From NCBI RefSeq assembly GCF_000383975.1, contig NZ_KB913017.1:2779527-2843526 (forward strand): a DNA stretch of 64,000 nt. Direction: 5' to 3'. The notes under the pieces are model-generated. The model was not told where the DNA came from. It saw only the letters and a program-made list of their open reading frames with translations, and ran no database searches. A program made the position numbers and the translations under genes. Positions within the stretch are counted from its first letter, which is position 1; every line of letters starts with the position of its first letter. The DNA comes from Natronorubrum tibetense GA33 (lineage in GTDB: Archaea > Halobacteriota > Halobacteria > Halobacteriales > Natrialbaceae). Positions 19,593-41,490 of this stretch are shown one piece after another.

Positions 19593-20037
19593 AGTACGCG
19601 TCCTGAGGAGATATAGTTATGTTAGCATCGTTAGATAAATCGGACGATCCTGAGGGAGAGACCCTCTCGACACCGTGTGTGGGGCTCTGGTCGTATCGGA
19701 CTCGAGCGGCCGTACTCCAAGCATCAACCTAATATCGATATACAAAATAGCCCACTCACTTCGACTGACGCCAGAGTCGGTGAGCGGTGGCGGCGATCCG
19801 CGCGAGTGGGGTTCTCTGTCGGCCTACTCGAGCACGCCGGTTCCCCTTTTCGACGTCAAGCACGCTCCCGGAGTTCGAAGCCCTTATACTCGAGAGTTGG
19901 GTAGACTGTCGTAGACTCGCTGAGTCGCGGGCATCAGCGGGCACCTGTTCGGCGTCGACGCCACCACAGGTCGGGATGTGATCCGCGGGGACCGGCCCCG
20001 GTCGGGATTGAACCAGGAAACGCCCGCGGTGATAGCT
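19593..20037 (+). promoter_or_regulatory. Non-coding region with structured leader of the L15e gene
   Basis: No protein gene is visible in these 445 bases. A TATA-like box (CTTATAC, about 19883-19889) would start transcription near 19912, giving an unusually long leader of about 125 bases before the L15e ATG. The leader holds at least two stem-loops: GACTC/GAGTC (19914-19926) and GACCG/CGGTC in the run of bases just before 20010. Long structured leaders on ribosomal protein genes often serve autoregulation; that use here is inference. Confidence 0.4.
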
Positions 20038-25689: not shown

Positions 25690-27645
25690 TCAGCCCTGCA
25701 GGAAGTCCGGCTCCGTTCGCTGTTCGTCGCGTTCGGCCTCGAGATGCGCTCTGAACGCCTCGATCTCGACGTCGTACTCTTGGTCCTCGAAGCGGTCCCG
25801 AACCGAGATATTGCCGTCGTCTTCCTCGTTGTCGCCGACGATGATCTGATAGGGGACACGGTCGTCGTGGGCCGCGCGGATCTTTCGCTCGAGCGTGGAG
25901 TCGCGGCCGTCGACCTCGACGCGGAAGTCGTCGAACTCGTTGGCGACGCGGTGGGCGTAGCCGAGGTTGTCGTCCGAAATCGGGAGCACGCGGACCTGCT
26001 CGGGCGCGAGCCACAGCGGGAAGCGACCCTCGTAGTGCTCGATGAGCATCATGAAGAACCGCTCGTAGCTGCCGTACAGTGCACGGTGGATCATCACCGG
26101 CTCGTGTTCCTCGTTGTCCTCGCCCACGTAAGAGAGGTCGAACCGGTCGGGCATGTTGAAGTCAAGTTGGACCGTCGGGCCGTCCCAGCTCCGGCCGATG
26201 GCGTCCTCGAACGCGAAGTCGATCTTCGGCCCGTAGAACGCACCGTCGCCCTCCTCGAGTTCGTAGTCTAAGTTGCGCTTCTCGAGGACGTTCTCGAGTT
26301 GCTCTTCTGCGTGCTCCCAGATCTCGTCGCTGCCGACGGACTTCTCTGGACGCGTCGCCAGCGCCATCTCGTAGTCGAGGTCGAACGTCTCCAAGACGTC
26401 CGTGATCATGTCCATGATCTCCTCGACCTCGCGTTCGATCTGGTCGGGCCGGATGAACAGGTGGCCGTCGTCGATCGTAAACGCCCAGACCCGAGACAGG
26501 CCGGAGAGTTCGCCGCGCTGCTCTTTTCGGTACACCTTCCCGTTCTCTGCGTATCTGATGGGGAGGTCGCGGTAGCTCCAGGACTGATCCTGGAAGATGG
26601 CTGCGTGGCCCGGGCAGTTCATGGGCTTCAGGCCGAACTCGTCGTCGCCGACGTCGAAGATGAACATGTCGTCGGCGTAGTTCTGGTAATGGCCCGAGCG
26701 GTGCCAGAGGTCCGTCTTGAAGACGTGGGGCGTTTCGACGTAGTCGTAGCCCGCGTCCTGATTCAGGTCCTCGACGAAGTCCTCGAGTTCCTTGAGCACC
26801 GTCTTCCCCGGCGGGTGATACAGCGGCAGTCCGGGGCCGGTGACGTCCTGAATCGAGAACAGATTCATCTCGTTGCCGATCTTCCGGTGGTCGCGCTTCT
26901 TGGCTTCCTGCTTGCGCTCGAGGAAGGCCTCGAGGTCGCTCTCGTCCTCGAAGGCCGTGCCGTAGATCCGCGTCTGCATCGTGTTTGCCTCGTCGCCGCG
27001 CCAGTAGGCGCCGGCGATCTCCAACAGCTCGACGGCGCCGATCTCGCCCGTCGACTCGACGTGTGGACCGGCACAGAGGTCTTCCCACTCGCCCTGGCTG
27101 TAGAAGGTGACCTGCTGGCCTTCGTCGGCGAGTTCCTCTAAGAGTTCGAGCTTGTACGGCTCGTCGGCGAGTCGCTCCTCGGCCTCCTCGATCGAGACGT
27201 CCTCGCGCTCGATCTCGTAGTCTTCGGCGATGATCGACTCGATTTCGTCCTCGATCTCCGCGAGGTCTGCCTCGTCGACGTCGAGATTGTCGAAGTCGTA
27301 GTAGAAGCCGTCGTCCGTCGGCGGGCCGATGGCGAGTTTGACCTCCTCGGCGTCGAACAGCCGTTCGACGGCCTGGGCGAGACAGTGCGACGCGGAGTGG
27401 CGCATGACTCGGAGATACTCTTCGGACTGGTCCGTGATGATCTCGAGTTCGGCGCCGTCGTAGGCTGGCTGTTCTTTCGCGACGAGTTCGCCGTCGAGTT
27501 TGCCGGCGATCGTGTCGCGGCCGAGACCGGGGCCGATCTCGTAGGCGCAGTCCTCGACCGTCGCGTCGGCGGCGACCTCGAGTTCCGAGCCGTCTGGCAG
27601 TACAACTACTATTCGTTCCTGTGATTGGGAATCTGATTCTGACAT
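25690..27645 (-). CDS. thrS: Threonyl-tRNA synthetase
   Basis: 651 residues. An N-terminal TGS domain (1-65) is followed by the editing-type SAD domain ([16 protein letters not shown], about 88-103), then the class II core with motif 2 ([25 protein letters not shown]), zinc ligands including MNCPGHA, motif 3 near [21 protein letters not shown], and an anticodon-binding domain at the C terminus. It has the bacterial-type layout, as in most haloarchaea, rather than the archaeal DTD-like editing domain. Confidence 0.97.
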
Positions 27646-27741
27646 GGGTAGCGCTGTGGCTGGTTGGTGAACTTCACACAGAAGTTCGGTCGGGCGTCCG
27701 CCTTGGCCGCTCGGCTGTGCGTTCGGGCCGACACAGCGAGC

Positions 27742-27793
27742 GGTAGGTGTGGGTTAGAAGCGGGCGAAAGCCCCTGTAAAGCGGACACCTACC
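27742..27793 (-). promoter_or_regulatory. Stem-loop in the thrS 5' leader
   Basis: GGTAGGTGT (27742-27750) and ACACCTACC (27785-27793) form a perfect 9-bp stem. Inside it GGGC/GCCC (27762-27773) forms a second stem with a 4-base loop. On the minus strand a TATA-like box (TTTTTATCC, about 27821-27829) would start RNA just ahead of the structure, giving thrS a leader of about 150 bases. The loop on the plus strand is GAAA, so a plus-strand RNA cannot be excluded. Confidence 0.5.
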
Positions 27794-27960
27794 ATCGTGG
27801 ATTCGAATTGTCTCGAGCGGGATAAAAACCTTCTGATGGTGTGGCGCCCACGTCAGAGTTCGGCGGGTTCGCTCGCGACCGGACTTGGAGAACACCCCCA
27901 ATCGTGTGGCAACTCGGAGACGAGCGAACAATTTTGTCGCTACATCCCGTAGCTCGGGTG

Positions 27961-39768: not shown

Positions 39769-41112
39769 GTGCGGTTTTTCGACCCAGACGGCGGTCCGTG
39801 TGAATGTCTTACAGCAGTGATCGCCTCTCACAGCGTCAAGTTTATATACGACGTCGCACCTCGGGTTCAGATACAATGTCTTCACCAGACAACCCGTCCT
39901 CTGACACCAGTCAGGGGGGTCGAGTTCTTCCAGGGCACGTTAGATTCCACTGACGAAATAGAGTCAGCACGTGTTTTCGATACGACCCTCCGGGACGGCG
40001 AACAGTCGCCCGGGACTTCGTTCTCCTACGACGATAAACGGCAGATTGCGTCCATCCTGGACGAAATGGGTACCCACGTCATCGAGGCTGGGTTCCCGGT
40101 CAACTCGGACGCCGAGTTCGAGGCCGTTCGTGATATCGCGTCATCGACCCAGACGACGACCTGCGGGTTAGCCCGCGTCGTCGACGGTGATATCGAAGCC
40201 GCACTGGATTCCGGTGTCGAAATGGTGCACACGTTCGTCAGCACCAGCGACGTCCAGATCGAGGATTCGATGCACGCGACCAGGGACGAAGTTGTACAGC
40301 GCGCAGTCGACTCGGTCGAACGCGTCGTCGAAACGGGAACCACCTGCATGTTCTCACCGATGGACGCGACGCGAACCGACGAGGCGTTCCTGATGGACGT
40401 GATCGAAGCGGTCACGGACGCGGGAGTCGACTGGATCAACATTCCGGACACGTGTGGCGTCGCCACGCCGACGCGGTTTAAGGCCATGATCGAGAAGGTC
40501 TGTGCCCACACCGACGCGCGGATCGACGTCCACACGCACGACGACTTCGGGCTGGCCACTGCCAACGCACTGGCCGGCATCGAAGCGGGAGCGGATCAGG
40601 CCCAGGTCTCGGTCAACTCCATCGGCGAGCGGGCCGGTAACGCCGCCTACGAGGAGTATGTGATGGCCATCGAGTCGCTCTACCAGACTGATACGGGGAT
40701 CGACACGACGCGAATCACCGAACTCTCCGAGATCGTCGAGGAGAAAAGCCAGATGGAGACGCCGGGCAACAAGCCGATCGTCGGTAACAACGCCTTCTCC
40801 CACGAGAGCGGGATCCACGCCGCTGGCGTTATCGAAAACTCCGACACCTTCGAACCCGGCGTGATGACGCCGGAGATGGTCGGTGCCACGCGAAAGCTCG
40901 TCATGGGCAAACACACCGGTACCCACTCTGTCCGCGAGCGACTGGTCGAGCGCGGCTTCGACCCGTCGGAAGACCAGGTCAGAGCGGTCACCCGCCGCGT
41001 CAAAGACTACGGCGCCGAGAAGCGCCGCGTCACGGTCGACGACTTAGAGCGCTTCGCCGAAGAGGCGGGCGTCGAACGCGGGCAACAGGAGGAAGAGGAG
41101 GTGCGCGTCTGA
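39769..41112 (+). CDS. leuA: 2-isopropylmalate synthase, 5' end probably frameshifted
   Basis: LeuA joins acetyl-CoA and 2-oxoisovalerate in leucine synthesis. The catalytic signature FDTTLRDGEQSPGTSF, VIEAGFPVNSDAEF, the metal motif DVHTHDDFGLATANALAGIEAGADQ, and KPIVGNNAFSHESGIHAAGV are present; citramalate synthase is a possible alternative, but the leuCD neighbours favour LeuA. The only conventional in-frame start is a GTG at 39769, which lies upstream of the TATA box. The ATG at the right distance from that box, 39876 (MSSPDNPSSDTSQGG), is out of frame; removing one G from the G6 run at 39914-39919 joins it to GVEFFQGTLDS. One extra G is therefore the likely defect. Confidence 0.93.
   Translation: MRFFDPDGGPCECLTAVIASHSVKFIYDVAPRVQIQCLHQTTRPLTPVRGVEFFQGTLDSTDEIESARVFDTTLRDGEQSPGTSFSYDDKRQIASILDEMGTHVIEAGFPVNSDAEFEAVRDIASSTQTTTCGLARVVDGDIEAALDSGVEMVHTFVSTSDVQIEDSMHATRDEVVQRAVDSVERVVETGTTCMFSPMDATRTDEAFLMDVIEAVTDAGVDWINIPDTCGVATPTRFKAMIEKVCAHTDARIDVHTHDDFGLATANALAGIEAGADQAQVSVNSIGERAGNAAYEEYVMAIESLYQTDTGIDTTRITELSEIVEEKSQMETPGNKPIVGNNAFSHESGIHAAGVIENSDTFEPGVMTPEMVGATRKLVMGKHTGTHSVRERLVERGFDPSEDQVRAVTRRVKDYGAEKRRVTVDDLERFAEEAGVERGQQEEEEVRV
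39841..39850 (+). promoter_or_regulatory. TATA box of the leuA transcript
   Basis: TTTATATACG lies 28 to 35 bases before the ATG at 39876, which is the standard spacing for a leaderless haloarchaeal gene. The ATG, however, is not in the leuA frame (see leuA). Confidence 0.65.
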
Positions 41113-41230: not shown

Positions 41231-41359
41231 ATGACCCTCGAGCAACCTACGGTAACAGTAATGACGGTCCGCGCTTCGCAGTCGGCTCGCACGCACGCAG
41301 CCGGCGGCAGCGCGCTCGCTCCGATTCGTATTGTAGGGGCGCTCTTGCCCCACTTCTAG
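41231..41359 (+). CDS. Candidate leader peptide of the ilvB operon, 42 aa
   Basis: ATG at 41231, TAG at 41359. The product begins MTLEQPTVTVMTVRASQS and ends APIRIVGALLPHF. Its last 15 residues are rich in the products of the operon: Ile, Ile, Val, Leu, Leu in a row of eight. That placement near the end is the mark of leader peptides in branched-chain operons. It sits 127 bases before ilvB and starts about 26 bases after an AT-rich box. Confidence 0.45.
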   Translation: MTLEQPTVTVMTVRASQSARTHAAGGSALAPIRIVGALLPHF

Positions 41360-41421: not shown

Positions 41422-41490
41422 ATGACAGCATACCACACACCCAGCGCACGCACAACGGATCGCCGCACGGCGGCGGGAGGCAATCGATGA
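41422..41490 (+). CDS. 22-residue upstream ORF overlapping the ilvB start
   Basis: ATG at 41422; product MTAYHTPSARTTDRRTAAGG NR. Its TGA (41488-41490) overlaps the ilvB ATG (41487-41489) as ATGA, a coupling arrangement. GGGAGG about 8 bases before ilvB could serve ilvB directly. It may be chance, but a similar micro-ORF stands before ilvN. Confidence 0.35.
   Translation: MTAYHTPSARTTDRRTAAGGNR

Follow-up and report, generated by a model that had tools for sequence, protein, structure and literature searches.

The threonyl-tRNA synthetase gene thrS of Natronorubrum tibetense GA33 is preceded by a conserved leader that probably acts through ribosome-mediated leader-peptide control, responding to charged tRNA-Thr. 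As far as sequence comparison can tell, this leader contains a conserved upstream ORF (uORF) with its frame, a Thr codon ACA, an outer helix (P1) that covaries and, in one family, an alternative pairing (P_alt), and the arrangement recurs before valS and ilvB with codons cognate to those genes. Transcription start, translation, pausing, ribosome footprint, direction of control and output step are what we infer for the thrS leader.

We analysed a window of 64,000 nt (assembly GCF_000383975.1, contig NZ_KB913017.1, positions 2,779,527-2,843,526 of the forward strand). An initial annotation of this DNA had described a structured leader of thrS, in which a 9-bp outer stem encloses a GGGC/GCCC hairpin and a TATA-like box fits transcription on the minus strand. 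Stem, hairpin and box all lie where they had been placed, with the minus-strand sequences given in Table 1, and thrS does have a folded minus-strand leader. That description overlooked a conserved short ORF that takes in the stem's 5' arm (the P1 5' arm) as well as the hairpin. Because the ATG of this ORF (27795) follows the TATA-like box by 26 nt, the leader is probably translated and more than a folded UTR. Nor is it an isolated thrS element, given that valS and ilvB are preceded by the same layout. Neither a tRNA nor an Rfam family was detected at the thrS leader, with no match even at E<=10 in 27600-27900. Elsewhere in the window, the Rfam eL15-Euryarchaeota ribosomal protein leader was found at 19944-20019 on the plus strand (40.3 bits).

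Table 1 Features of the thrS, valS and ilvB leaders (window positions unless a genome contig is named)
Feature	Position	Strand	Evidence
thrS, threonyl-tRNA synthetase	25690-27645	-	TIGR00418, 660 bits (cut-off 383.65)
TATA-like box TTTTTAT, thrS leader promoter	27822-27828	-	sequence
Upstream ORF (putative leader peptide) MVGVRFTGAFARF and stop, 13 codons, ATG at 27795	27754-27795	-	found in 102 distinct leaders
Codon 7, the conserved Thr codon ACA following TTT	27775-27777	-	38/38 ThrRS-defined loci (L111-L148)
P1 5' arm GGTAGGTGT, last base of ATG to codon 4	27785-27793	-	covariation with 3' arm
P1 3' arm ACACCTACC, just past uORF stop	27742-27750	-	covariation; sequence
GC hairpin GGGC-TTTC-GCCC, inside uORF, begins one base past ACA	27762-27773	-	sequence; 95/102 leaders
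P_alt 5' arm, codons 3-6, overlaps P1	27778-27789	-	duplex analysis
P_alt 3' arm AAGGCGGACGCC, 12 pairs with 27778-27789 in the window	27693-27704	-	sequence; duplex analysis
Candidate hairpin P2 (CCGCTCGCTGTG..CACAGCCGAGCGG)	27707-27743	-	inspection of leaders
Candidate hairpin P3 (GAACTTC..GAAGTTC), ahead of thrS start	27669-27687	-	inspection of close relatives
Val leader loci	L265-L289, L291-L309; in N. tibetense G000:C1 about 2358720-2358936		valS upstream
ilvB leader uORF MTVRASQSARTHAAGGSALAPIRIVGALLPHF and stop, ending ..IRIVGALLPHF	41261-41359	+	ORF in 30/30 loci read
ilvB leader GTA (Val) codon and hairpin GGGGC-GCTCTT-GCCCC	41333-41351	+	sequence; layout-based window scan

On the minus strand the uORF reads ATG GTA GGT GTC CGC TTT ACA GGG GCT TTC GCC CGC TTC TAA. 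A short ORF with TTT-ACA (Phe-Thr) before thrS, retaining ATG, frame and stop, was found in 102 distinct leaders from seven haloarchaeal families, with a length of 10-17 codons in 100 leaders and 30 codons in the other two, TAA (91), TGA (9) or TAG (2) as the stop, and a single Thr codon in 95. Since 99 of the 102 leaders were picked with a pattern containing ATG and TTTACA, this agreement is partly by construction and sets assembled in other ways therefore matter. All 38 loci defined by ThrRS (L111-L148) had the uORF, which fitted the exact pattern in 36 and was longer in L119 and L123; it was likewise present at 29/29 loci collected by DNA similarity (L082-L110) and in all nine named relatives with readable upstream DNA. 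Within the sets not chosen by the uORF pattern, TTT and ACA were unvarying including the third base, though they are minor codons in the window (13.4% of Phe and 7.6% of Thr codons, respectively, in 28 long ORFs). The 30-codon uORFs of L119 and L123 have unrelated N-termini, share the C-terminal motif RFTRAxARF and stop in frame (RFTRAVARF and RFTRAFARF), and again start shortly past a TATA-like box. In L178, a locus from family f3, one additional codon stands ahead of the core (MYVGDRFTPRSE and stop). Preservation of the frame despite new N-termini and an extra codon is hard to explain without translation. The thrS leader ORF thus appears to be conserved as coding sequence and is presumably translated.

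Relative to the uORF ATG, the best TATA-like match starts at -32/-33 in 85 of the 102 leaders; in regions lacking a uORF, scored with a slightly different motif, its start relative to the thrS ATG was -29 to -31 in 26 of 31. Because the spacing to the uORF ATG resembles that to the thrS ATG where no uORF intervenes, transcription of thrS probably begins at the uORF ATG or a few bases upstream of it. The distance from the uORF stop to the thrS start ranges from 39 to 327 nt. Some family f6 leaders carry a Shine-Dalgarno-like GGAGGT before thrS; this motif is absent before thrS in the window.

Covariation in relatives, the check proposed with the initial annotation, was assessed on its structure in a MAFFT alignment (A1) of 60 of the 102 leaders. 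Pairing was retained in 82.4% of 852 cells. Both-sided changes were observed in 29 cells versus 11.9 +/- 2.6 in shuffles (0/500 as high) and at most 17 for slid versions of the structure, so the compensatory changes whose absence was to refute the initial annotation are present. Six pairs showed such changes versus 3.6 in shuffles (11/500 as high), and further pair types were not raised in this alignment (16 versus 17.0). The clearest covarying pair involves the second base of codon 2 (U-A 35, C-G 14, U-G 9). RNAalifold on A1 returned a weak unrelated hairpin and no P1, probably owing to poor alignment of the gapped 3' arms by MAFFT. In individual leaders, P1 was better than 98% of shuffles (p<=0.02) in just 34/102, with shuffles that preserve base composition only and not dinucleotides; L119 has no clear P1 (p 0.35), yet its peptide is kept. 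Cross-pairing of P1 arms between clades gave means of -17.4 kcal/mol for own and -15.3 kcal/mol for crossed arms, which is mildly informative only, because the search stretch takes in other partners. A hairpin with at least four GC pairs starting 0-6 nt after ACA was found in 95/102 leaders versus 6.8% of shuffles. This inner hairpin has a variable apical loop across 60 leaders, and TTTACA is placed in the internal loop between it and P1.

P_alt and P1 share bases and are mutually exclusive; P1 covaries across families, while P_alt is supported mainly in family f1, whose named members are Natrialbaceae. With shuffles preserving base composition within 10-nt blocks, not dinucleotides, P_alt reached p<=0.02 in 34/66 leaders of f1, 0/10 of f12 and 1/23 of the rest (1/33 outside f1). 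Its partner in f1 mostly tracks codon changes (GTCCGC-GCGGAC, GTCCGT-ACGGAC, GTCTGC-GCAGAC), and when partners were swapped between codon types, native and foreign combinations were clearly separated for the GTCCGC type only. P1 was also considered as a terminator and rejected, as a T-run of at least five within 45 nt of the uORF stop is missing in 101/102 leaders and present in one; an intrinsic terminator in the thrS leader is unlikely on these sequences.

In the thrS, valS and ilvB leaders alike, a cognate codon ending in A comes before a GC hairpin placed at the stop. Among the upstream regions of N. tibetense synthetase genes examined, which covered three Pfam families and not all synthetases, valS stood out. 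Its upstream DNA has matches in 55/61 genomes of the family, and a short ORF of 21-32 codons ending ..VFVGA.. and stop was present in 25/25 loci (a pattern recount caught 24; L267, with TTT for TTC, was read directly), its GTA codon lying directly ahead of a GC hairpin that overlaps the stop. The wider Val-leader set comprises 41 rows of 45 loci, with L273, L274 and L276 off pattern though read and L305 without an in-frame ATG. At the valS loci inspected, a second short ORF, with an end such as ..RAVRA, extends over the valS start codon. L290 (1447-1662, plus strand), from the family f3 genome G202, has the Val leader ahead of ilvB and not of valS. The same genome also carries the thrS uORF at L178.

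The ilvB (acetolactate synthase) gene of N. tibetense itself lies within the window, at 41487. Its leader holds ATT CGT ATT GTA followed by the GGGGC..GCCCC hairpin, the ORF with IRIVGA was present in 30/30 loci, and the leader DNA has matches in 47/61 family genomes. A scan of the window based on the layout gave three matches, namely the thrS leader, the ilvB leader and one short ORF with a poor TATA match. In all three leaders tested for conservation, the codon preceding the hairpin specifies an amino acid that fits the gene, and IlvB serves both Ile and Val, both of which its leader encodes. Leader codons thus appear cognate to the gene they would regulate: Thr ACA for thrS, Val GTA for valS and Ile/Val for ilvB. 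Judged by eye, no such leader precedes the N. tibetense genes that, from their sequence, putatively encode the Ile, Leu, Ser and Pro synthetases.

DNA of the thrS leader region has matches in 112/121 genomes of the same family, and a ThrRS of this type occurs in 203/214 genomes of the order. The uORF pattern occurs in 137/392 genomes and, by our count, a backward control pattern in 6/392; further matches to the uORF pattern in G043, G050 and G125 lie outside the leaders read. Three extra matches (L191, L202 and L203) were dismissed as chance on reading. The uORF was present in 8/8 fetched thrS upstream regions of families f6 and f8 and missing in 31/32 of families f3, f4, f5, f10 and f12, the exception being L178; the device is therefore dispensable. 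Several f12 genomes carry two ThrRS genes (L181-L190), and in the two with both copies on our ThrRS tree, the uORF precedes the divergent copy and the other gene is leaderless. On this tree (30 rows; L019 left out, L046 included), the uORF label needs three changes, two of them forced by well-supported branches, so gain, loss or movement of the uORF occurred more than once.

In the mechanism we propose, ribosomes would start at the 13-codon uORF and reach one Thr codon, the rare ACA, directly ahead of the GC hairpin and the uORF stop. Under a shortage of charged tRNA-Thr, the ribosome would pause at ACA and cover approximately codons 2-11, so that segments past the stop could not pair with the P1 or P_alt 5' arm. 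With charged tRNA-Thr in good supply, the ribosome would finish and leave, and P1 could form. This switch would set the level of thrS expression, in the simplest direction with more expression when threonine is short. Because no U-tract terminator was found, the output would probably be at translation or at factor-dependent termination.

Single-sequence folding cannot choose the strand, because the 52-nt element beats nearly all shuffles on both: -21.4 kcal/mol on the minus strand (z -3.35, 1/200 shuffles as good) and -25.5 kcal/mol on the plus strand (z -4.12, 0/200). For the 201-nt leader, z was -3.10 on the minus and -1.73 on the plus strand, and the best minus-strand fold is P_alt and not P1. 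The slightly better folding of the isolated element on the plus strand would suit a plus-strand RNA or a DNA-level element in place of a thrS leader. We consider this hardly credible, since 61 pair cells in the alignment of 60 leaders (our sum) form G-U pairs when read on the minus strand but would become A.C mismatches in an RNA from the plus strand, the TATA-like box and the ORF fit the minus strand, and all 102 leaders are followed by a ThrRS start in the same orientation. Together, these observations fix the minus strand, on which the initial annotation had placed transcription. A T-box-like reading has TTTACA pair with the anticodon loop of uncharged tRNA-Thr(UGU), with no translation. 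The codon-like ACA in the internal loop would fit such pairing; however, the Rfam search of 27600-27900, through which a second tRNA contact was also sought, gave no match to the T-box model even at E<=10, and the conserved ATG and frame would be left unexplained, which makes this reading very improbable.

Autogenous control is a further possibility. E. coli ThrRS binds its own leader, where the apical loop of the thrS operator mimics the tRNA-Thr anticodon, and the haloarchaeal gene likewise has a structured leader. ThrRS could bind the folded leader, whose internal loop would expose TTTACA, and thereby repress its own translation, the ORF being incidental; both the invariance of TTTACA, wobble positions included, and the covariation of P1 would agree with this. 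An incidental frame would not be expected to outlast replacement of the N-terminus, as in L119 and L123, however, and the same layout precedes valS and ilvB, although IlvB is no synthetase. Moreover, unlike the E. coli operator, the leader has no conserved anticodon-arm-like apical loop, its apical loop being variable, and has a conserved ORF instead. We regard autogenous control as unlikely. Alternatively, the uORF could be translated without acting as an amino-acid sensor and tune basal expression of thrS, valS and ilvB, for example by 5'-end occupancy or re-initiation. The mostly single Thr codon, the variable distance between uORF stop and thrS, and the 31 regions of other families that manage without a uORF speak for such tuning. 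It would, however, make a coincidence of the rare codons that match the gene in three gene families and of the Val leader before ilvB at L290, and we hold it to be rather unlikely. Control by a leader peptide that senses charged tRNA-Thr is the reading we prefer.

Bacterial gene regulation offers classic cases of control by amino acid supply through leader peptides, among them the ribosome-mediated attenuators trpL, ilvL, thrL and pheM of E. coli. Like these, the haloarchaeal leaders have a short ORF whose codons include the amino acid that the gene serves, and they stand before synthetase genes and a gene of branched-chain amino acid synthesis. Alternative pairings that involve the leader ORF, as in the bacterial systems, are candidates here, with P_alt supported mainly in family f1. 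In contrast to the bacterial systems, the thrS leader is archaeal and probably leaderless or nearly so, has a helix arm within the first ORF codons and has no detectable U-tract terminator. Whereas bacterial attenuators usually have several cognate codons, it usually has one Thr codon, just before the GC hairpin. To our knowledge, there is no established archaeal case of leader-peptide control by amino acid supply.

A haloarchaeal cis-regulatory RNA before an amino-acid gene has a precedent in leuA-Halobacteria RNA (RF03001), which was reportedly described in a 2017 paper. Even at E<=10, the RF03001 covariance model did not match the thrS leader. It matched elsewhere in the N. tibetense genome (L317, 2338-2390, minus strand, 71.1 bits), within a short ORF (MAREPFSTPESEDRGSRGNPAGREIQR and stop) that is without a Leu codon and is perhaps another leader ORF. 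In the window, at about 39876-39960 on the plus strand, a leuA-like gene has an ATG past its TATA-like box (39876) that does not share the frame of the gene body, and six Gs in a row occupy 39914-39919; the mismatch may reflect an assembly indel, a frameshift or another start.

Judged by title or the start of the abstract, no archaeal leader-peptide attenuator came up in searches of an open-access library, which lacks most subscription papers. The accessible portions of PMC11456600, PMC12482152, PMC7531240 and PMC13158618 describe no such archaeal control, the first of them reporting uORF candidates in Methanosarcina mazei. A bacterial counterpart is the ilvBNC leader of Corynebacterium glutamicum, presented as a leader-peptide attenuator in the part of the article available (PMC11857589). 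For Haloferax volcanii, transcription start mapping identified 16 uORFs in long 5'-UTRs, including uORFs before trpS and pheS (PMC4983044, Table 2). As with thrS, these stand ahead of synthetase genes in a haloarchaeon; unlike the thrS leader, they are framed, in the portion of that article available, as ORFs for small proteins, with no link to cognate codons or control, and the uORF table does not include thrS, valS or ilvB. To the extent that this portion of the article shows, the trpS and pheS uORFs independently support uORFs as such and are an earlier description of them.

More broadly, and with somewhat less than even confidence, we suggest that leader-peptide attenuation exists in haloarchaea as a general system of their own, in which a leaderless uORF would carry a rare cognate codon ending in A directly ahead of a GC hairpin located at the stop. 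Such a device, found before thrS, valS and ilvB, would be exchangeable between genes of one amino acid and, with no intrinsic terminator involved, would let the archaeal ribosome sense charged tRNA. With three genes whose codons match, the leader-peptide idea is directly testable in tractable haloarchaea. Such tests would show how transcription, leaderless translation and amino acid supply connect in a domain with a eukaryote-like RNA polymerase. The layout before thrS, valS and branched-chain genes suggests that archaea, like bacteria, may sense amino-acid shortage via translation of a leader peptide.
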